A DNA stretch of 29,555 nt from a virus, in IMG/VR virus record IMGVR_UViG_3300005613_000310, positions 1 through 29,555 of that record, one strand, 5' to 3'. Under the pieces are notes generated by a model, which was not told the origin of the DNA, did no database searches, and was given only the letters and a program-made list of their open reading frames with translations. The translations under genes were made by a program, and so were the position numbers. Shown in pieces: positions 4,819 through 26,588 of this stretch (the stretch's first letter is position 1; each line of letters starts with the position of its first letter).

Positions 4819-5478
4819 TTAATCTAATATGTCTTCTGTACGGTCTTCAACAAGTGATGGGTGCTTGATGTAATTTTTGAATTGAGTCAAACGATAAGCT
4901 TCCAGCTTTTTCTGTTTTTTCAAAACGCCATAGTGTTTAATCTTGGCAAAATCTAAATCAAAGATTAAAGGGTGTATTGATTTTGGGGACACATTAAGAT
5001 TTAAAACACATTCCCAATGCAAAGGATTTACACAATTATCTATTGTGCAGATATTTTTTTTTCTTTGTATACGTAAAGAACCAATGTCTCCCCACGCTGC
5101 TGTATACATTATCTTTGCAACCATTAAGTTTTCTGAAAAAGCTTTTGACGATTCCGATCTGTATGAAGGAAAAGTCATTCTTTTGGTTTTAATATCACAG
5201 GGCCAGCACTCTTCAATTCCTTTTAGCTCTACATGTTTTAAAAATTCTAAGAAGCGTACTTTATATTCGCTTTCTATATAGTTGACATCAAACCCGCAAG
5301 AGTTTATTGAAATCTTATGGGCACAGTGATAGCACCATTTGTCCTTAATAGAACGTATGTCATGTCCATGGATGCATTGCATACCTCGATAAAGACCTAA
5401 ATTTTCCAGGCTTTTTTTATCAAGACTGTCTACATCTTTGTGGAAGGGAAGGACGATTGGTTGTTTTTTTTCAGGCAT
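4819..5478 (-). CDS. Putative HNH-type endonuclease with zinc-binding Cys pairs
   Basis: A 219-aa protein. Residues 35-54 contain a zinc-ribbon-like set C-x2-G-H ... C-Y-H-C. Residues 145-158 contain C-x4-C-V-N-P-L-H-W, which matches the C-x4-C-x-N-P-x-H signature of phage HNH nucleases with a zinc-bound core. Such proteins often behave as free-standing homing endonucleases that cut DNA and promote their own spread. The ATG lies within the end of the upstream HNH gene (8-bp overlap), so the two nucleases are adjacent and probably co-transcribed. The catalytic His is not certain. Confidence 0.65.
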   Translation of the reverse strand: MPEKKQPIVLPFHKDVDSLDKKSLENLGLYRGMQCIHGHDIRSIKDKWCYHCAHKISINSCGFDVNYIESEYKVRFLEFLKHVELKGIEECWPCDIKTKRMTFPSYRSESSKAFSENLMVAKIMYTAAWGDIGSLRIQRKKNICTIDNCVNPLHWECVLNLNVSPKSIHPLIFDLDFAKIKHYGVLKKQKKLEAYRLTQFKNYIKHPSLVEDRTEDILD

Positions 5479-5866
5479 TTTTATTTTGCTTTACGGTACG
5501 ATAACGAAGTGAACTTCTGCGTGCAAAATCGTTAAGTTTCATTCCTTCCCAAACTTTTAATTCTTTTCTGTTATCTTTATCTTTATTACTGTCTAAATGA
5601 ATGATATCTTTGCCGCAAGGATCTTCTCCCGTTCTTAGAAAGTATACGATGCGATGGGCATGATACTGCTCACCAAACAAACGCACAACATAGTACTCAC
5701 CTGTCGCGTTCCACTTGCCACACATCTCTCCTTTTGTGCGCCAGCCATCCTCGTAAACCCACTCTAGTCCGCTTGGATATTTTTCAGAAAGTTTCAAGTA
5801 TTCCTGGGCCTGTTCGAGCGAGTTAAATGGAAGTGCTTTGTAGCGACGGCGAGTCAATGAAGACAT
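5471..5866 (-). CDS. HNH endonuclease
   Basis: A 131-aa protein with a typical phage HNH arrangement: A-H-R-I-V-Y-F-L-R-T-G near residues 71-81, then D-I-I-H-L-D-S-N-K-x-N-R-K-E-L at about 88-105, where the I-H-x-D-x-N-K-x-x-N block carries the catalytic His and the Asn. These enzymes nick or cut DNA and are frequent free-standing homing genes in phages. ATG at 5866 is preferred to the GTG one codon before. The bipartite element at 5875-5918 lies directly upstream, its inner motif ending only 8 bp before the ATG, so the message could be nearly leaderless if the element is a promoter. Confidence 0.82.
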   Translation of the reverse strand: MSSLTRRRYKALPFNSLEQAQEYLKLSEKYPSGLEWVYEDGWRTKGEMCGKWNATGEYYVVRLFGEQYHAHRIVYFLRTGEDPCGKDIIHLDSNKDKDNRKELKVWEGMKLNDFARRSSLRYRTVKQNKNA

Positions 5867-5874
5867 CACAAAAA

Positions 5875-5918
5875 CCGATTACACCTTTATTTTAACTAAG
5901 ATAAAAGAAAACGTACAC
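5875..5918 (-). promoter_or_regulatory. Bipartite repeated element, copy A (putative phage promoter)
   Basis: On the minus strand it reads GTGTACGTTT, 23 nt, GGTGTAATCGG, matching copies at 24849-24892, 25457-25500 and 25600-25643 with identical spacing. It lies between the terminator of the glycosyltransferase gene (5929-5952) and the start of the HNH gene (5866), exactly where a promoter is expected. Neither half matches the host consensus well, so a phage-encoded factor is possible. Confidence 0.65.
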
Positions 5919-5928
5919 TAAGAATATT

Positions 5929-5952
5929 AAAAAAACCCCCTTATTCAGGGGG
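5929..5952 (-). terminator. Intrinsic terminator after the glycosyltransferase gene
   Basis: On the minus strand: CCCCC, a 7-nt loop, GGGGG, then seven T. It lies about 20 bp after the glycosyltransferase stop and just before the putative promoter copy A. Confidence 0.88.
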
Positions 5953-5972
5953 CTGCCTCTTGCCCTTTGAGC

Positions 5973-13045: not shown

Positions 13046-14329
13046 ATGCCACAAGGTCGTTATTATAATTCTGAATTAGTTAAAGATGTGTATGTAGTTA
13101 ATCCTTTAACGGCAGCTATAAGCACATCTGGAACTACAAGCAGTGATGCTTTTGGCAGGCTAAGGGTTTCGAATCCTTATACTTTGTTTGAGTCTTCTCA
13201 TCGCTATGTAGACAATGGCGAATGGGTTACGTCAACAGCAGCAGGAGGTTCTTCTGCCTTTAATGCAGATGCAGGCTTGCTTGACATGACAGTCACAACT
13301 GCATCAGGCTCACAAGTATTAAGAGAAACTAAAAAAGTATTTAATTATCAACCTGGAAAATCTCTGCTTGCTATTTTATCTTTTAATTTTGAAGAAGCTA
13401 AAAATAATCTTAGGCAGCGCATCGGATACTTTGGCGCTGAGAATGGTCTCTACTTGGAGCTCAACAGTACTAATGAACCTTCATTTGTTAAGAGAAGTTC
13501 TGTTACAGGATCTCTTGTCAATACGGAAGTATTAAAAACTGATTGGAATATTGATACCTTGGATGGCAACGGACCTTCAGGGATTACTTTAGATCTATCA
13601 AAGGTTCAAATTGTTTGGTTTGATTTTGAGTGGCTTGGTTCTGGTACAGTCCGATGCGGATTTGTAATAGATGGTGTATTCATTCATTGCCACTCATTCC
13701 AGCACGCAAATGTTAGTTCAGGAACTTACATTACTACAGCTAGCTTACCCTTGCGTGTTGAAATTACCAACACTGACACTACGGCTAGCAGTAGTACTTT
13801 AAAACAGATTTGTATGACAGTTATTTCAGAGGGAGGCTATGAAATAAGGGGTAACGCAGCAGAAGCAAAGTTACCAATCGGTTCTCCAAGAGATCTTACA
13901 GTTGCTTCAACAGTGTATCCTCTTATTTCATTACGTCTAAAGAGCACACGCCTCGACGGCATAGCAATCTTGGATTCATTAAATGTATTAGGTATTACTA
14001 ACAATGCAAACTATTGTTGGGAAGTTGTACAAGGAGGCACGACTTCTGGAGGCACTTGGGTTACTAATAGTAGTTCTTCATTAGTTGAGTACAACATGAC
14101 AGCAACAAGTTACAGCCTTGGTGCAGGCGAAGTGTTAACAGCAGGCTACGCAGCTGGTTCAAACCAAGGCTCCGCTGCTTCAGAACTGCACCGTGATAAT
14201 TTATTTGAATTCCAGCTTGAACGCAACAGCTTCACCAGCACTCCTATAGAACTTATCCTCGTTGCATCTAGTGATACTGCAGGTGCAGATGTACTTGCTT
14301 CACTAGGATGGCAAGAAACAAATAGGTAA
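13046..14329 (+). CDS. Putative virion structural protein (tail or fibre type)
   Basis: A 427-aa protein rich in Ser, Thr, Gly and Asn with almost no long helices. Near residue 34 it has S-D-A-F-G-R-L-R-V-S-N-P-Y-T-L-F-E-S, a motif I associate with a widespread phage and marine virus structural family; about 200 residues of jelly-roll-like strands follow (V-W-F-D-F-E-W-L-G-S-G-T-V-R-C-G-F). The C-terminal part around 320-427 is a second beta domain. It may be a tail fibre, capsid decoration or receptor-binding protein. It lies alone on the plus strand, away from the main structural block at the left end. Confidence 0.72.
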   Translation: MPQGRYYNSELVKDVYVVNPLTAAISTSGTTSSDAFGRLRVSNPYTLFESSHRYVDNGEWVTSTAAGGSSAFNADAGLLDMTVTTASGSQVLRETKKVFNYQPGKSLLAILSFNFEEAKNNLRQRIGYFGAENGLYLELNSTNEPSFVKRSSVTGSLVNTEVLKTDWNIDTLDGNGPSGITLDLSKVQIVWFDFEWLGSGTVRCGFVIDGVFIHCHSFQHANVSSGTYITTASLPLRVEITNTDTTASSSTLKQICMTVISEGGYEIRGNAAEAKLPIGSPRDLTVASTVYPLISLRLKSTRLDGIAILDSLNVLGITNNANYCWEVVQGGTTSGGTWVTNSSSSLVEYNMTATSYSLGAGEVLTAGYAAGSNQGSAASELHRDNLFEFQLERNSFTSTPIELILVASSDTAGADVLASLGWQETNR

Positions 14330-21398: not shown

Positions 21399-21483
21399 TT
21401 GCATCAAGCTCTTCATGAATGTCTTGATGATGAAACCGAAGAGGCTTCTGAATTAATTTCTGAAGCCTTTTCTTTTTAGACAT
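21289..21483 (-). CDS. Small coiled-coil-like protein, antisense to the riboswitch peptide
   Basis: A 64-aa frame, MSKKKRLQKLIQKPLRFHHQ at the start, then a helix with heptad-like hydrophobics (I-H-E-E-L-D-A-I-K-Q-Q-L-A-L-Q-N-E-L-L) and an acidic tail with D-S-E-D-S-K-D-S-E. Its ATG overlaps the stop of the upstream zinc-ribbon gene by 8 bp, which supports that it is real. Its 3' 110 bp are shared with the plus-strand peptide gene, and its first codons overlap that gene's terminator. One of the two may be less conserved. Confidence 0.5.
   Translation of the reverse strand: MSKKKRLQKLIQKPLRFHHQDIHEELDAIKQQLALQNELLACIGLDLVRAYLFDSEDSKDSEAQ
21439..21478 (+). terminator. Intrinsic terminator of the riboswitch-peptide transcript
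   Basis: A 10-bp stem (21439-21448 with 21462-21471, one G-T pair), a 13-nt loop, then TCTTTTT. It lies 40 bp after the peptide stop and closes a complete plus-strand transcription unit of about 300 nt. Confidence 0.75.
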
Positions 21484-21796
21484 TTGTAAATGATTGATAC
21501 CTTACAATCTTATCTACAAATTCAGGTTTAATCGAAACTTTTTCTGATATACGTTTGATGCTATATCCATTTCTTTTTAGCCTACGAATATTTTTTATAG
21601 CGTCTTCATCTATATGAGAAGAGCCAGGTATGAAACCGTATCTGTTTTTTCTGCACTCTTCACGTAAGGCATACCTCTCAACTGTTTTAAATTTAACATC
21701 ACAGGTTAAGCACCTGCAGTAACGCGCAGTGAAAGAATCTTTATGTTGTGTGCAGGTGACTTTTGTTTTTTTAGCATTGCAAACAGGACATTTCAT
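21476..21796 (-). CDS. Zinc-ribbon plus helix-turn-helix regulator (NrdR-like ribbon)
   Basis: A 106-aa protein. Residues 3-34 form a zinc ribbon, C-P-V-C ... C-R-C-L-T-C, with a layout close to the NrdR N terminus (C-P-x-C, T-K-V, R-x-C, C-x-x-C, F-x-T-V/F-E). The second half has a helix-turn-helix-like stretch: D-A-I-K-N-I-R-R-L-K-R-N-G-Y-S-I-K-R-I-S-E-K-V. No NrdR ATP-cone is present. It is probably a small DNA-binding regulator of phage transcription. It is one of three successive zinc-ribbon genes, all linked by 1-4 bp overlaps. Confidence 0.72.
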   Translation of the reverse strand: MKCPVCNAKKTKVTCTQHKDSFTARYCRCLTCDVKFKTVERYALREECRKNRYGFIPGSSHIDEDAIKNIRRLKRNGYSIKRISEKVSIKPEFVDKIVRYQSFTNV

Positions 21797-22074
21797 TTGT
21801 TAGAAATAGATAGTGGCTTTAAATAAAAGGTACGTTTCATATCGCGTGGCATGTTTTTATACTTAGGGGGATGAACAACACGTTCCTTTAAAGGATCAAT
21901 ATTCATCTCTGGACTTTGTTTAGTCCACCATTTTCCTTCACACCAAGCACAGTTTCTGAAGCGGAGAATGAAACCATCCTCTGTATAAACTGTGTCCTTA
22001 ACGTAAGAAGATCCTGGACCTTCTCTTTTACAATCAGGGCAAGCTGGAGCGGGATAGAATTTTCTTTGGGGCAT
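21793..22074 (-). CDS. Zinc-ribbon protein
   Basis: A 93-aa protein with C-P-D-C near residues 12-15 and C-A-W-C near 42-45, separated by a beta-hairpin-like stretch (D-T-V-Y-T-E-D-G-F-I-L-R-F-R-N). The Cys spacing fits a zinc ribbon of the kind found in small phage transcription activators. The C-terminal half is basic (P-K-Y-K-N-M-P-R-D-M-K-R). It overlaps its upstream neighbour by one base and the downstream gene by 4. Nucleic-acid binding is inferred; no target known. Confidence 0.7.
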   Translation of the reverse strand: MPQRKFYPAPACPDCKREGPGSSYVKDTVYTEDGFILRFRNCAWCEGKWWTKQSPEMNIDPLKERVVHPPKYKNMPRDMKRTFYLKPLSISNK

Positions 22075-22313
22075 TAGTATTTGAATTTAAGGTAGGTTAC
22101 TAGTTCTTTAATCTTTCCTAGTACATACTCATAGCGTTTCCACTTCTCATAAGTTTCTTCATCCAATTCATATTTGGATTCTTTAAACTTACAAAGGTCA
22201 CAAACATAACGTCTGCGAGTAGCAGTGGAAGTTTTATCAGTGCATGTAATTCGGTAAGACTTTTGTCTACAGTTAGGACATTGGGCAAGCTTGAGCTTGA
22301 TGGTATCTTTCAT
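22074..22313 (-). CDS. Zinc-ribbon protein (third of three)
   Basis: A 79-aa protein with C-P-N-C (residues 12-15) and C-D-L-C (38-41) around a T-C-T-D-K-T-S-T-A-T-R-R-R-Y-V stretch, resembling the NrdR/Ogr style of zinc ribbon. A charged C-terminal helix (E-E-T-Y-E-K-W-K-R-Y-E-Y-V-L-G-K-I-K-E) follows. Overlaps neighbours by 1 and 4 bp. Together with the next two genes it forms a block of small putative regulators. Confidence 0.72.
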   Translation of the reverse strand: MKDTIKLKLAQCPNCRQKSYRITCTDKTSTATRRRYVCDLCKFKESKYELDEETYEKWKRYEYVLGKIKELVTYLKFKY

Positions 22314-22857: not shown

Positions 22858-22946
22858 TGGTAGGAGCGGAGGGACTTGAACCCACATAAGCTTTAAAGCT
22901 CGACGGATTTTAAGTCCGTTCTGTCTACCAATTCCAGCACGCTCCC
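22858..22946 (-). tRNA. tRNA-Leu (UAA), with encoded CCA
   Basis: On the minus strand from 22946: acceptor GGGAGCG pairs with CGCTCCT (one G-U pair). The D arm, the anticodon stem ACGGA/TCCGT with loop CTTAAAA (anticodon UAA), a long class II variable arm, and a T arm with TTCAAGT follow. The discriminator A and CCA end at 22858. The T stem has one mismatch (T-T). It reads UUA and UUG leucine codons, which are frequent in this AT-leaning phage. A promoter-like TTGATG-N19-TATAAA lies upstream after the terminator. Confidence 0.95.
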
Positions 22947-23099: not shown

Positions 23100-23381
23100 T
23101 CACACCTCCCTTAGATGTTTACATAAGGTTACTTGCCATTGCATGTAGTTTACCCCTTCTCTTTTTACCTTGATCAAGTTTCTCTCCTCCATTCTCTGGA
23201 GCTGCCCCAGATATCTCTTCTGACTTGACGCATGCCTTGGAAGGAAACAAGGGGCCTGTGGGTATTTTTTGTAATGGTGGCGGACATACCTCAGTAGATT
23301 TCTCTGCATCGGCGTTAGTCTTAACCGCGTTGCTCCTGTCAATGGCATCTTCGATTCGGTTGCGTAGAGATACAAGTCCAT
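23100..23381 (-). CDS. Winged-helix DNA-binding protein, overprinted on another frame
   Basis: A 93-aa frame (ATG 23381; MPLTGATRLRLTPMQRNLL at 23348 is an alternative). The sequence R-L-T-P-M-Q-R-N-L-L-R-Y-V-R-H-H-Y-K-K-Y-P-Q-A-P, then L-G-Q-L-Q-R-M-E-E-R-N-L-I-K-V-K-R-E-G and W-Q-V-T-L reads like a LexA-type winged helix, with a recognition helix and a wing. It shares almost all of its bases with the C-terminal part of the 156-aa gene, shifted by one base. It may be a real overlapping gene, or be joined to the upstream frame by a frameshift. The strong terminator follows its stop by 5 bp, which suits a last gene. Confidence 0.5.
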   Translation of the reverse strand: MDLYLYATESKMPLTGATRLRLTPMQRNLLRYVRHHYKKYPQAPCFLPRHASSQKRYLGQLQRMEERNLIKVKREGVNYMQWQVTLCKHLREV

Positions 23382-23589
23382 CAATTCTTTGCCTATATAT
23401 GGAAATGTTTTTTGATGTTTCTCTTATGTACTCAATCTTTTGAGCTTTACTAAATCCATCAGTCAGTACATCGATGAAGTGGTTGTTGAGTGCAATTTCG
23501 TCATTGATTAATTCTTTGAAATCAAAAAGAGATAAAGGTCTATCTTTAGAGTGCAGGGCTTTGAACATTGTGTCGTGAGTTGTTTGCAT
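23119..23589 (-). CDS. Hypothetical protein with helical N terminus and disordered C terminus
   Basis: A 156-aa frame with ATG at 23589. Residues 1-85 are charged helices (L-F-D-F-K-E-L-I-N-D-E-I-A-L-N-N-H-F, I-D-G-L-V-S-L-R-N-R-I-E-D-A-I-D). Residues 86-156 are low in complexity and Pro/Gly/Lys-rich (P-P-P-L-Q-K, G-K-K-R-R-G-K). The disordered half is the part overlapped by the winged-helix frame, so that stretch may serve mainly the other protein. Two hairpins precede its ATG. Function unknown. Confidence 0.55.
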   Translation of the reverse strand: MQTTHDTMFKALHSKDRPLSLFDFKELINDEIALNNHFIDVLTDGFSKAQKIEYIRETSKNISIYRQRIDGLVSLRNRIEDAIDRSNAVKTNADAEKSTEVCPPPLQKIPTGPLFPSKACVKSEEISGAAPENGGEKLDQGKKRRGKLHAMASNLM

Positions 23590-23623: not shown

Positions 23624-23675
23624 TAGTCCCATAAAATTGTGGGACTATGGCACAGGGTTATGGGTGACCCTGTGC
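23624..23675 (-). other. Two adjacent 8-bp hairpins in the leader of the 156-aa gene
   Basis: TAGTCCCA/TGGGACTA (23624-23631 with 23640-23647, loop 8) and GCACAGGG/CCCTGTGC (23650-23657 with 23668-23675, loop 10) stand side by side. They occupy the space before the ATG at 23589 and the end of the upstream gene. Neither has a U-tract, and no hammerhead or other ribozyme core is recognisable. Confidence 0.6.
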
Positions 23676-24167
23676 TTGGGTGGCTTGTGTCTCCTGCTCA
23701 GCTTCCTCTTGCTCCATGCGACGGTTATACATGTACTGAATTTGAGAAAGCAGTTGCTCTTCATTGTCCGGCCCAGCCTGTGGGTGACGACCGACGCCGG
23801 GACCGCCGAGCTTCATGAGCTCCCTGATCTCTTTTGTGAGACGGGGCAGTGATTTGGCATCGCTTTCGGTTGAAGCATCAAGGACTGATTGGAACAAGAT
23901 GTTGATCAGGACATCACGCATCTCCATAACTGGAGGCGTTGCCTTGACTCCACCCTCGTCTTTGCTTGCCCTCTCATTGTTGGCGATAGCGATGTCTCTG
24001 AAGGCACTGCTCCGGCAGATTGAGAAACGCTTCTGCATCTGCAGTGCGATTGCATAAGAAGGCACGTTGAGATCAAGCATGCGCTTGGCGAAAGCGATGT
24101 GCTCATCGCGCTCTGCATTAGTACGGCGGTTCTTTGTGTTGGTCTTTGTCTCGTTCTTGTTGGTCAT
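23658..24167 (-). CDS. HTH protein, possible terminase small subunit
   Basis: A 169-aa protein. Residues about 17-66 form a helix-turn-helix-like segment (R-D-E-H-I-A-F-A-K-R-M-L-D-L-N-V-P-S-Y-A-I-A ... S-A-F-R-D-I-A-I). A central helical region ends in L-P-R-L-T-K-E-I-R-E-L-M-K-L-G-G-P-G. The tail is Gln/Glu-rich. An N-terminal HTH plus helical middle and low-complexity tail is the usual form of phage small terminases, which recognise packaging sites, but no large subunit is seen in the window, so this stays tentative; another DNA-binding regulator is equally possible. Confidence 0.55.
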   Translation of the reverse strand: MTNKNETKTNTKNRRTNAERDEHIAFAKRMLDLNVPSYAIALQMQKRFSICRSSAFRDIAIANNERASKDEGGVKATPPVMEMRDVLINILFQSVLDASTESDAKSLPRLTKEIRELMKLGGPGVGRHPQAGPDNEEQLLSQIQYMYNRRMEQEEAEQETQATQAQGHP

Positions 24168-24438: not shown

Positions 24439-24644
24439 TCGCCTTCGGGGATGAGGTTGTCTGGGTTGTTAGGATCTGGGGCCATCCATCCTTCTTCATC
24501 AAGCTCCCACCCTGATTCCTCTCTAAGTTTGAAGATCCGATCCTGTTCAAGGATGGCAGCTTCTACTTTGTCGAGGTGGTCATACCAGTTCGGGTGGAGC
24601 TCCATCATCTGGAGGTTCCATCTGGCTGTGTAGTTGTCAGTCAT
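24363..24644 (-). CDS. Small acidic hypothetical protein
   Basis: A 93-aa acidic frame whose ATG overlaps the stop of the 51-aa gene (ATGA). It contains W-N-L-Q-M-M-E-L-H-P-N-W-Y-D-H-L-D-K-V-E and a Pro/Trp-rich middle (D-E-E-G-W-M-A-P-D-P-N-N-P-D-N). It reads like a soluble alpha protein with a flexible tail. Function unknown. Confidence 0.65.
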   Translation of the reverse strand: MTDNYTARWNLQMMELHPNWYDHLDKVEAAILEQDRIFKLREESGWELDEEGWMAPDPNNPDNLIPEGEWIDHGLLPPEQISDSAERDVPSTT

Positions 24645-24796
24645 AAGTCAATGTAGATGTCGTTTGATTGATCTTCAGTTTGTTCTTTGCTTGCAATGGA
24701 CACCGGCTCTAAGTAACCGTTCTCACCTAGAACATAGATGTATTCATCCATGCAATCTTCAGGTTCTCTTAACAATTCGTTTGGGTTCATGTTCAT
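24641..24796 (-). CDS. Small acidic protein, first gene after element B
   Basis: A 51-aa frame, MNMNPNELLREPEDCMDEYI at the start and rich in Asp, Glu and Asn. The ATG at 24796 (or 24790) lies about 53 bp downstream of the bipartite element B, and its stop overlaps the next ATG. No motif. It leads a small leftward operon (24796 to about 23100) that ends at the strong terminator. Confidence 0.6.
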   Translation of the reverse strand: MNMNPNELLREPEDCMDEYIYVLGENGYLEPVSIASKEQTEDQSNDIYIDL

Positions 24797-24848
24797 CGGG
24801 GTGGGTTGAATGTACTGAGGGATTGTAACAAGGTTGTGTGTATAAAAA

Positions 24849-24892
24849 CCGATTACACCTATAAATTATCTTGGTACTAAAGAAACGTACAC
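24849..24892 (-). promoter_or_regulatory. Bipartite repeated element, copy B (putative phage promoter)
   Basis: GTGTACGTTT, 23 nt, GGTGTAATCGG on the minus strand, followed by TTTTTATA. The flank outside GTGTAC (T-A-C-G-T-T-A-A-C-C-C-C-C-C-T-T) is also shared with copies C and D. It lies between the genes at 25033 and 24796. Confidence 0.65.
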
Positions 24893-24907
24893 AAGGGGGG
24901 TTAACGT

Positions 24908-25024
24908 ATGTTTTGGTTGTGGATAAGTGTGACCGTGGTAAGTGTAATCGAATTTTGTGCAGGATTGTTGTTTGTCCTGGTGCAATCAATGACTGGTGCA
25001 TGGTTAGTCCAGTGGGTTAGCTAA
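24908..25024 (+). CDS. Possible 38-aa membrane peptide (plus strand)
   Basis: A 38-aa frame, MFWLWISVTVVSVIEFCAGL at the start, almost entirely hydrophobic with Trp-rich ends: one membrane helix. An AAGGGGGG tract lies 7 nt before the ATG. The frame lies in the gap between element B and the end of the 25033 gene, and its DNA carries a degenerate GTGTAATCG half-site of the repeated element at 24942-24950. It may thus be regulatory DNA that is open by chance; kept at low confidence. Confidence 0.3.
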   Translation: MFWLWISVTVVSVIEFCAGLLFVLVQSMTGAWLVQWVS

Positions 25025-25032
25025 GGGTTAGT

Positions 25033-25332
25033 TCACGTAGTCATATACAGATCATCACCTTCGTCATCGCATCGCCAGTCGATCTCTTGCCCTACGAGAT
25101 AGCTCAACAGCTCTGCATGTTCGTTCTTGAGCGGTGGGTGCTCGCCATCTAGTGGTACCTCGAAGCCGCCTGAGCATTGCCCTGGCCGCCACTCCGCTGG
25201 ATCAAGCAGACTCGTCCGTACCTTGTAGACATCTTCAAGGATTGCAGTGGCGATGTAATGCGTGGTCCCTTCTTTGTCGATGAGATCAACGTCGACTGAG
25301 ATGATCTCAATGATCTTGTTCGTGATTGTCAT
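25033..25332 (-). CDS. Hypothetical protein, 99 aa, first gene after the inverted-repeat region
   Basis: A 99-aa acidic protein from ATG at 25332 (MTITNKIIEIISVDVDLIDK); the frame extends upstream only to a weaker TTG. A beta-rich N-terminal half (T-H-Y-I-A-T-A-I-L-E-D-V-Y-K-V-R) is followed by P-G-Q-C-S-G-G-F-E-V-P-L-D-G-E-H-P-P-L, a small loop-rich part with two Cys, and an acidic tail. It is transcribed leftward from copy C of the bipartite element. Family unknown. Confidence 0.66.
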   Translation of the reverse strand: MTITNKIIEIISVDVDLIDKEGTTHYIATAILEDVYKVRTSLLDPAEWRPGQCSGGFEVPLDGEHPPLKNEHAELLSYLVGQEIDWRCDDEGDDLYMTT

Positions 25333-25387
25333 AAGTCTTGTGGTGTTGTTACTGAGATGAGTTCTCAATAGTGTTGGGTGTGCATGT

Positions 25388-25438
25388 TTTCCGATTACAG
25401 CTTAGCTGAGATCCCTTGCGGTGTCTCATAATCGGAAA
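25388..25438. repeat. Nested inverted repeat with a CCGATTA core
   Basis: TTTCCGATTA (25388-25397) and TAATCGGAAA (25429-25438) are perfect inverted repeats. Between them, TGAGA (25407-25411) pairs with TCTCA (25424-25428), directly next to the outer helix on the right. The outer arms share the CCGATTACA core of the bipartite elements. It lies in the leader of the 25332 gene, so it may be an RNA hairpin or a protein-binding site. Confidence 0.55.
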
Positions 25439-25456
25439 TTAAATGACGCAAAAAAA

Positions 25457-25500
25457 CCGATTACACCCCTTCGCAAATCCCCCTATAGAAAAACGTACAC
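25457..25500 (-). promoter_or_regulatory. Bipartite repeated element, copy C
   Basis: GTGTACGTTT, 23 nt, GGTGTAATCGG on the minus strand, followed by TTTTTTTG. It points leftward to the 25332 gene and forms the left arm of the 189-bp inverted repeat. Confidence 0.65.
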
Positions 25501-25599
25501 TAGGGGAGTTAATGTACAGAACATTAGTCTCAAAAAAGATTAATGAGATTGTCTTGATTGGATCAGATGAGACTCAGCTTCTGTACATAAGACCCTCTT

Positions 25600-25643
25600 G
25601 TGTACGTTTTCTCTATAGCTAAATAAATCAAGGGTGTAATCGG
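25600..25643 (+). promoter_or_regulatory. Bipartite repeated element, copy D
   Basis: GTGTACGTTT, 23 nt, GGTGTAATCGG on the plus strand, followed by TATTTG. It points rightward, toward genes that lie on the minus strand, so a transcript from it would be antisense to the right-hand operon. Confidence 0.6.
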
Positions 25644-25675
25644 TATTTGTGCACTGATTTTCTCGATTGTTACAG

Positions 25676-25711
25676 CAAAAATCCCTGAGATGCATTGGCA
25701 CCACAGGGATT
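25676..25711 (-). terminator. Intrinsic terminator of the right-hand operon
   Basis: On the minus strand: AATCCCTG (25711-25704), a 16-nt loop, CAGGGATT (25687-25680), then TTTT. It closes the leftward operon that runs from beyond the right edge to about 25841. Confidence 0.75.
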
Positions 25712-25840
25712 CACTCAAGTGCATTAAGTTCAAATACAGCTTCGCCTTGCTCGCGTGGTATCATCTCGCCCCTCTTGATTCCTTATTGCATCTCCCCTGT
25801 TCCTTGCTACCTTTCCGTAGCTCCACTCAGCTCGTGCTCA

Positions 25841-26170
25841 TCACACCAGCCCAGCCAGACTCAGCCATGAATCCTCATGGTCTGGTTCAACGGTATCTCC
25901 ATCAGGCGTGGGACAGACACTGTCCATCGTCCACTCCTGAAAGGCAGCCAGTGATGGCACCTGATACCAATTGCCGTTCCACCAGAGCTTTAGGACACCC
26001 TTGAAGGCTGCAACGTCTCCATTCATACGCTGAAGTTTGCCGTCGATCATTGTCCGCTTTCTGCCGTTGACAGTCTTGGTGCATCTGACCATGCCATCTT
26101 TGGATCGGAACACGGTCTTGTTCAGGGGAAGCTGCTCTTCTAAGGAGCGTTCGTAATCGATGTCAATCAT
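25841..26170 (-). CDS. Hypothetical protein, last gene of the right-hand operon
   Basis: A 109-aa frame from ATG at 26170 (MIDIDYERSLEEQLPLNKTV), overlapping the upstream gene by 8 bp. It has a basic beta-like part (M-V-R-C-T-K-T-V-N-G-R-K-R-T-M-I-D-G-K-L) and then V-L-K-L-W-W-N-G-N-W-Y-Q-V-P-S-L-A-A-F-Q-E-W. The acidic, Pro-rich end has D-G-D-T-V-E-P-D-H-E-D. Aromatic density suggests a compact beta domain. No family recognised. Confidence 0.66.
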   Translation of the reverse strand: MIDIDYERSLEEQLPLNKTVFRSKDGMVRCTKTVNGRKRTMIDGKLQRMNGDVAAFKGVLKLWWNGNWYQVPSLAAFQEWTMDSVCPTPDGDTVEPDHEDSWLSLAGLV

Positions 26171-26588
26171 TGTTGAGTTCCTTCTTAAGTTGCTTGAGAG
26201 TAATAGGAGCACCGTCGAGTCGCAGCTTGCAGATCAGGCGGTTAAAAGGGAAGCCAATGGGACTATCCATCTTTGTATATGTCAGCTCAATGCTGATGAC
26301 ATGCTCACCAAAGAGAATCGAATGAGTCACTGGATCAGCATGACAGGTTGATCCCTTTTCACCTAGCTTCATTCTGTACTCATCTTTATACTGCTCGATC
26401 AAACTTAAGACTTGATCTTTGGTGCTGGCTGAAATGTCCATGGTGTTGTTGTTCATTTGTTTGATGACTTGAAAGTTGTTCTTTGGTCTTGAAGCTTTCA
26501 CACGTTTGATCCTGTGAGAGTTTAAGGCTCTCACCCTAATCATTTGTCGTTCAAGATCTTTCTGAAGATGCTTGCTGATCATGTTCAT
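26163..26588 (-). CDS. Hypothetical protein, 141 aa
   Basis: A 141-aa protein, ATG at 26588 overlapping the upstream stop by 4 bp. The first 45 residues are basic and helical (L-Q-K-D-L-E-R-Q-M-I-R-V-R-A-L-N-S-H-R-I-K-R-V-K), then a helix D-Q-V-L-S-L-I-E-Q-Y-K-D-E-Y, then beta strands (V-T-H-S-I-L-F-G-E-H-V-I-S-I-E-L-T-Y). A basic N-terminal arm fits nucleic-acid binding, but there is no recognised motif. A second Met at residue 3 is an alternative start. Confidence 0.66.
   Translation of the reverse strand: MNMISKHLQKDLERQMIRVRALNSHRIKRVKASRPKNNFQVIKQMNNNTMDISASTKDQVLSLIEQYKDEYRMKLGEKGSTCHADPVTHSILFGEHVISIELTYTKMDSPIGFPFNRLICKLRLDGAPITLKQLKKELNND

Follow-up and report, generated by a model that had tools for sequence, protein, structure and literature searches.

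A phage-specific two-block unit, paired head to head in a 205-bp palindrome, as a candidate promoter/operator element in a relative of Synechococcus phage S-EIV1

The palindrome centred on position 25550 of the IMG/VR record IMGVR_UViG_3300005613_000310 consists of two copies, arranged head to head, of a single phage-specific and probably regulatory unit. Two further copies of this unit were found in the 29,555 nucleotides analysed here, hereafter referred to as the window, which on sequence comparison derives from the genome of a tailed phage that is a relative of Synechococcus phage S-EIV1. The unit is likely to be a lineage-specific promoter/operator element, and it probably needs a phage-encoded DNA-binding factor. 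This reading draws on the structure of the unit, on its occurrence in related phages and on its position with respect to the surrounding genes.

Structure of the palindrome and copies of the unit

An earlier note on this DNA had described two 77-bp arms mirrored without a gap around 25550, with conserved patches, an AT-rich centre and bipartite elements pointing outward on both sides, and this description was confirmed. The arms described (25456-25532 and 25568-25644) actually extend further, to 25448-25532 on the left and 25568-25652 on the right, giving a span of 205 bp. They are separated by a centre of 35 nt without assigned strand (25533-25567), with a G+C content of about 31%, as counted by eye. 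The ungapped inverted-repeat score was 23.4, the strongest in the region, whereas none of 300 dinucleotide-shuffled versions of the 500-bp region scored above 14.0; folded as single-stranded DNA, the palindrome gave a z-score of -9.6.

Each arm is characterized, from the centre outwards, by an inner and an outer block, which are perfectly conserved between the two arms (11 out of 11 and 13 out of 13 positions, respectively), whereas a base-by-base comparison of the arms revealed near-random identity in the spacer between the blocks. Selection seems to have preserved the blocks and their spacing, a pattern for which a recent duplication would not account. In the left arm, the outward unit lies on the minus strand, with the inner block GTGTACGTTT at 25500-25491 and the outer block GGTGTAATCGG at 25467-25457; in the right arm, it lies on the plus strand, with the corresponding blocks at 25600-25609 and 25633-25643. 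In both arms, moreover, the inner block is preceded, at a distance of 19 bp, by a second TGTACA half-site (25518-25513, minus strand, and 25582-25587, plus strand), which results in the dyad GTACA-N13-TGTAC.

When the arms were searched against the window, the unit was also found singly at two positions that the earlier note had missed, 24838-24908 and 5867-5923. The third copy (24838-24908, minus strand; inner block 24892-24883, outer block 24859-24849) lies upstream of an ORF at 24641-24796 and is accompanied by a degenerate, reverse-facing partner on the plus strand (24904-24960, with TGTAATCG at 24943), so that the two form a second, weaker inverted pair (24838-24960). The fourth copy (5867-5923, minus strand) has its inner block at 5918-5909 and its outer block at 5885-5875. 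Overall, the unit corresponds to GTGTACGTTT-N23-GGTGTAATCGG, which is exact in the four window copies with an invariant spacing; about 1e-8 chance occurrences would be expected for one exact copy. The distance from TGTAC to TGTAATCG was 34 bp in all five window-lineage units examined.

The unit was absent from 84,980 bacterial and archaeal species genomes, with the exception of one hit (L035), apparently a chance match, which on reading by eye seems to lie within a protein gene. A likeness of the arms to the cyanobacterial LexA and NtcA boxes was considered and dropped, as the matches were either not common to both arms or a poor fit.

Conservation of the unit and of its layout in related phages

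No match to the window was found in the phage collection at the DNA level, and pattern scans of IMG/VR detected the unit in only three contigs. One relative, IMGVR_UViG_3300006810_000037 (hereafter G1; 69,774 bp), is probably complete, as indicated by an 81-bp terminal repeat. It carries four units in the same places as the window and none elsewhere. The palindrome is the top-ranked inverted repeat of the entire G1 genome, in which the weaker pair corresponding to 24838-24960 scored 14.2. G1 and the window are 91-94% identical over most of their shared length, so conservation in G1 alone is weak evidence. The non-coding stretch at about 25440-25800 is about 98-99% identical to G1, compared with 77-97% in most of the neighbouring 100-bp bins on either side. 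Genome-wide, 28% of same-size segments equal or exceed the identity of this stretch. At 24991-25001, G1 carries about 230 bp of extra sequence with a 68-aa ORF that is not in the window. In a further contig (L009), which is about 79% identical, the fourth unit and its spacing are kept; the preceding sequence differs and is again terminator-like. Another contig (L034), whose homologue of the gene at 25841-26212 is 46% identical, belongs to a different phage, in which the palindrome is absent.

IMGVR_UViG_3300030095_006494 (hereafter L042; 40 kb) was recovered when the neighbouring 93-aa protein was used as a query. It shares the local gene order of the window, and its polymerase is 67% identical over the available part. 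Upstream of its homologue of the gene at 25033-25335, L042 carries an inverted repeat at 2543-2750, which is 208 bp long (205 bp in the window) and scored 37.8, versus a shuffle maximum of 13. Its arms contain TTTAC and TGTCTACG, 31 bp apart, which differ from the window blocks and are the same in both arms. A third unit, at about 4857-4895, contains the same TTTAC/TGTCTACG pair, again 31 bp apart; its location makes it the counterpart of 24838-24908. Each genome thus has a single version of the blocks, and the version differs from one genome to the other, which is what a single trans-acting protein reading every copy would lead one to expect.

The palindromes of the window and of L042 did not align significantly when compared directly. 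Their homology is instead suggested by gene position, span, architecture, the third unit and a shared GGnTGTnnnCGG pattern in the outer block, the last chosen post hoc. A similar spacer, CTTTAG[T/A]ACCAAGA[T/C]AA, was also observed in L042 at about 4825-4906 and in the window at 24838-24960. The earlier note had named missing conservation of the arms in relatives among the grounds for refuting its reading; G1 has kept the arms, and L042 carries a comparable palindrome at the same gene position.

Other features were observed elsewhere in the window. A virion structural gene at 13046-14329 stands alone on the plus strand inside a minus-strand cluster; it is 60% identical to a gene of Puniceispirillum phage HMO-2011, and related ones occur in many cyanophages. 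Three consecutive small proteins encoded at 21476-22313 (minus strand) contain pairs of cysteines reminiscent of zinc ribbons. The first of them, which has relatives in S-EIV1 and L042, matches the NrdR zinc ribbon weakly. A tRNA-Leu gene (anticodon taa) is located at 22858-22946 on the minus strand.

Gene context and possible roles of the unit

Only four units are present per genome, none of them before structural genes. The fourth lies between an intrinsic terminator just upstream (5934-5954, minus strand) and, directly downstream, a gene encoding an HNH endonuclease-like protein (5471-5869, minus strand; PHROG 99, E-value 8.5e-11, with a weak match to Pfam HNH_3), and nearly fills the gap between the terminator and the start codon. 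The first gene downstream of the left arm (25033-25335, minus strand) has homologues in L042 and S-EIV1; neither Pfam nor PHROGs assigned it to a family. It is separated from the arm by a leader of about 120 nt, in which a branched hairpin is predicted (25387-25438, minus strand; z-score of -3.5 for 25300-25440). The base stem of this hairpin repeats TAATCGG/CCGATTA, and TAATCGG is the outer-block motif. No sigma-70-like promoter was called in 25000-26200, and Rfam gave no match over 25300-26000. The blocks do not clearly correspond to a -35 or a -10 element, and the outer-block TGTAAT becomes TGTCTA in L042.

Taken together, the repeated unit, its fixed spacing, the placement of one copy ahead of a start codon and behind a terminator, and the conservation in relatives point to a promoter or protein-binding role. 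Two of the roles put forward in the earlier note, promoter activity and symmetric protein binding, are well supported as interpretations on these grounds; a replication origin is less likely. In the mechanism that we propose, a phage protein would bind the blocks and recruit or position RNA polymerase. The left arm would drive the minus-strand genes from 25335 leftwards, and the right arm would either produce a non-coding antisense RNA over the gene at 25841-26212 or provide a second binding site for cooperative control.

As for the factor that might read the unit, two small proteins encoded downstream provide a lead only: a candidate DNA-binding regulator that appears helix-turn-helix-like by eye (23658-24167, minus strand) and a candidate regulator that appears winged-helix-like by eye (23100-23384, minus strand). 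No family match was found for either in Pfam and PHROGs. Among three genomes compared, both were conserved in G1 and L042 and were not detectable in S-EIV1.

The right arm faces no gene of its own, as the earlier note had stated. The only notable plus-strand ORF (25690-26004) was not retained as a gene: it overlaps the opposite-strand gene at 25841-26212, and the few differences between the window and G1 in its non-overlapping part alter the amino acid. The gene at 25841-26212 (minus strand), over which the arm points in antisense, has homologues in L034 and S-EIV1 and probably terminates at a hairpin followed by TTTTT (25672-25711, minus strand), into which the arm also points. In L042, the reverse arm similarly overlaps the end of a co-directional ORF. 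Since in both phages a co-directional gene lies behind the reverse-facing arm, the palindrome does not serve two operons as a divergent promoter, the latter being a role that the earlier note had considered. A structured small RNA transcribed from the right arm was also discarded, as 25640-25830 exhibited no unusual fold (z-score of -1.2), and no plus-strand terminator was found just past the arm. As two diverged phages both maintain a reverse arm that serves no gene, the symmetry may well have a use in itself, and the arm is presumably kept for antisense RNA, for cooperative binding or looping, or for replication priming.

The dyad GTACA-N13-TGTAC present in both mirrored arms, as well as the uniformity of blocks within a genome expected for one trans-acting protein, would also suit an operator array for a repressor or another regulator, devoid of a promoter of its own, in which the bound protein bridges the two arms. 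We consider such an array quite unlikely, however, because the unit before the HNH gene leaves little room for a separate promoter ahead of the start codon. Inverted duplications do occur, and the arms share extra sequence outside the blocks, but it is extremely improbable that the palindrome arose by chance or by a recent inverted duplication without function: its score lies far above those of the shuffles, perfect blocks flank a diverged spacer, and the palindrome is kept in G1 and matched by a comparable element in L042, where the gene position is the same.

The palindrome may also be all or part of a replication origin, either through symmetric initiator sites or through divergent transcripts that would prime bidirectional synthesis, as do the MotA-dependent promoters at oriF and oriG of T4; T4 origins built on such promoters offer a precedent (PMC3016281). 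The gene-less right arm would then be a primer promoter. Consistent with this, TGTAATCG occurs eight times in G1, versus 1.6 expected, with six of these occurrences within 2 kb around the palindrome. Moreover, the only TTWTCCACA box in the window (TTATCCACA, DnaA-like; 24918-24926, minus strand) and the only one in the examined 40 kb of L042 are both situated 25-26 bp upstream of the neighbouring unit, with spacing determined by eye. The L042 box, at nearly the same distance from the unit corresponding to 24838-24908, is TTTTCCACA, the cyanobacterial DnaA box (PMC4674748). Against this, no DnaA box was found inside the palindrome, and the lone unit copy before the HNH gene, about 20 kb away, needs no origin role. 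The skew analysis that the earlier note had proposed as a check of its origin claim, run in G1, revealed no cumulative GC or AT skew inflection at the palindrome, gene orientation being a confounding factor in this measure. G1 also contains another DnaA-like cluster away from the palindrome, with three boxes within 130 bp (33412-33541 in reverse-complement coordinates, past the window end). This cluster, near a minus-to-plus gene switch, is a competing origin candidate. An origin at the palindrome is unlikely, although its chance is appreciable. A composite arrangement can also be envisaged, in which paired factor-dependent promoters, one of them gene-less, would act as an early-gene switch and as a bidirectional, transcription-primed origin, with the recognition blocks of every site changing together from one related phage to another; we regard this arrangement as unlikely.

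Comparison with known systems

The S-EIV1 genome (KJ410740) resembles the window in its polymerase (57% identical) and primase (41% identical), and both genes flanking the palindrome have homologues there in the same order. It differs in that the unit is missing, the corresponding place has no comparable inverted repeat, and homologues of the two candidate DNA-binding proteins were not detectable; a 17-nt resemblance in S-EIV1, TTATAGGTGTAAT, was not clearly above chance. In a limited literature search, neither mapped promoters nor a mapped origin turned up for S-EIV1-like cyanophages. The preferred reading, in which the unit is a promoter/operator element, would provide an exact motif for gene control in these phages and points to two candidate regulators. 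The window and L042 also offer an example of recognition blocks that are uniform within, and different between, two related phages. If the gene-less arm does prime replication, it would locate an origin for this lineage.

Among known systems, the nearest mechanistic parallel is the middle promoter of T4, which depends on MotA; of the kinds described so far, the intergenic-repeat promoters of halovirus HF2 come closest. T4 middle promoters are likewise those of a lytic phage and, as we propose for the unit, factor-dependent, and some of them also prime replication (PMC3016281). In T4, however, a MotA site in the -30 region is combined with a sigma-70 -10 element, whereas the blocks of the unit are 34 bp apart in the window (31 bp in L042) and are accompanied by no consistent -10; an activator site at -30 together with a sigma-70 -10 was not found in 25000-26200, and no MotA homologue was identified.

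The HF2 repeats comprise a class I of 58 bp and a class II of 29 bp and include a conserved bidirectional promoter region (PMC8707807). The likeness lies in short, virus-specific intergenic repeats with conserved motifs and positions, one region being bidirectional, and the unit is, in the same manner, a short motif repeated at several intergenic positions with conserved spacing. Long counter-transcripts have also been reported for the HF2 repeats (PMC8707807). HF2 differs in its archaeal host, its TATA boxes and its proven promoter activity, whereas the promoter described here is predicted and has no clear TATA box or -10. A further difference from HF2 is that the pair in the window forms a large palindrome, with one arm that faces no gene.
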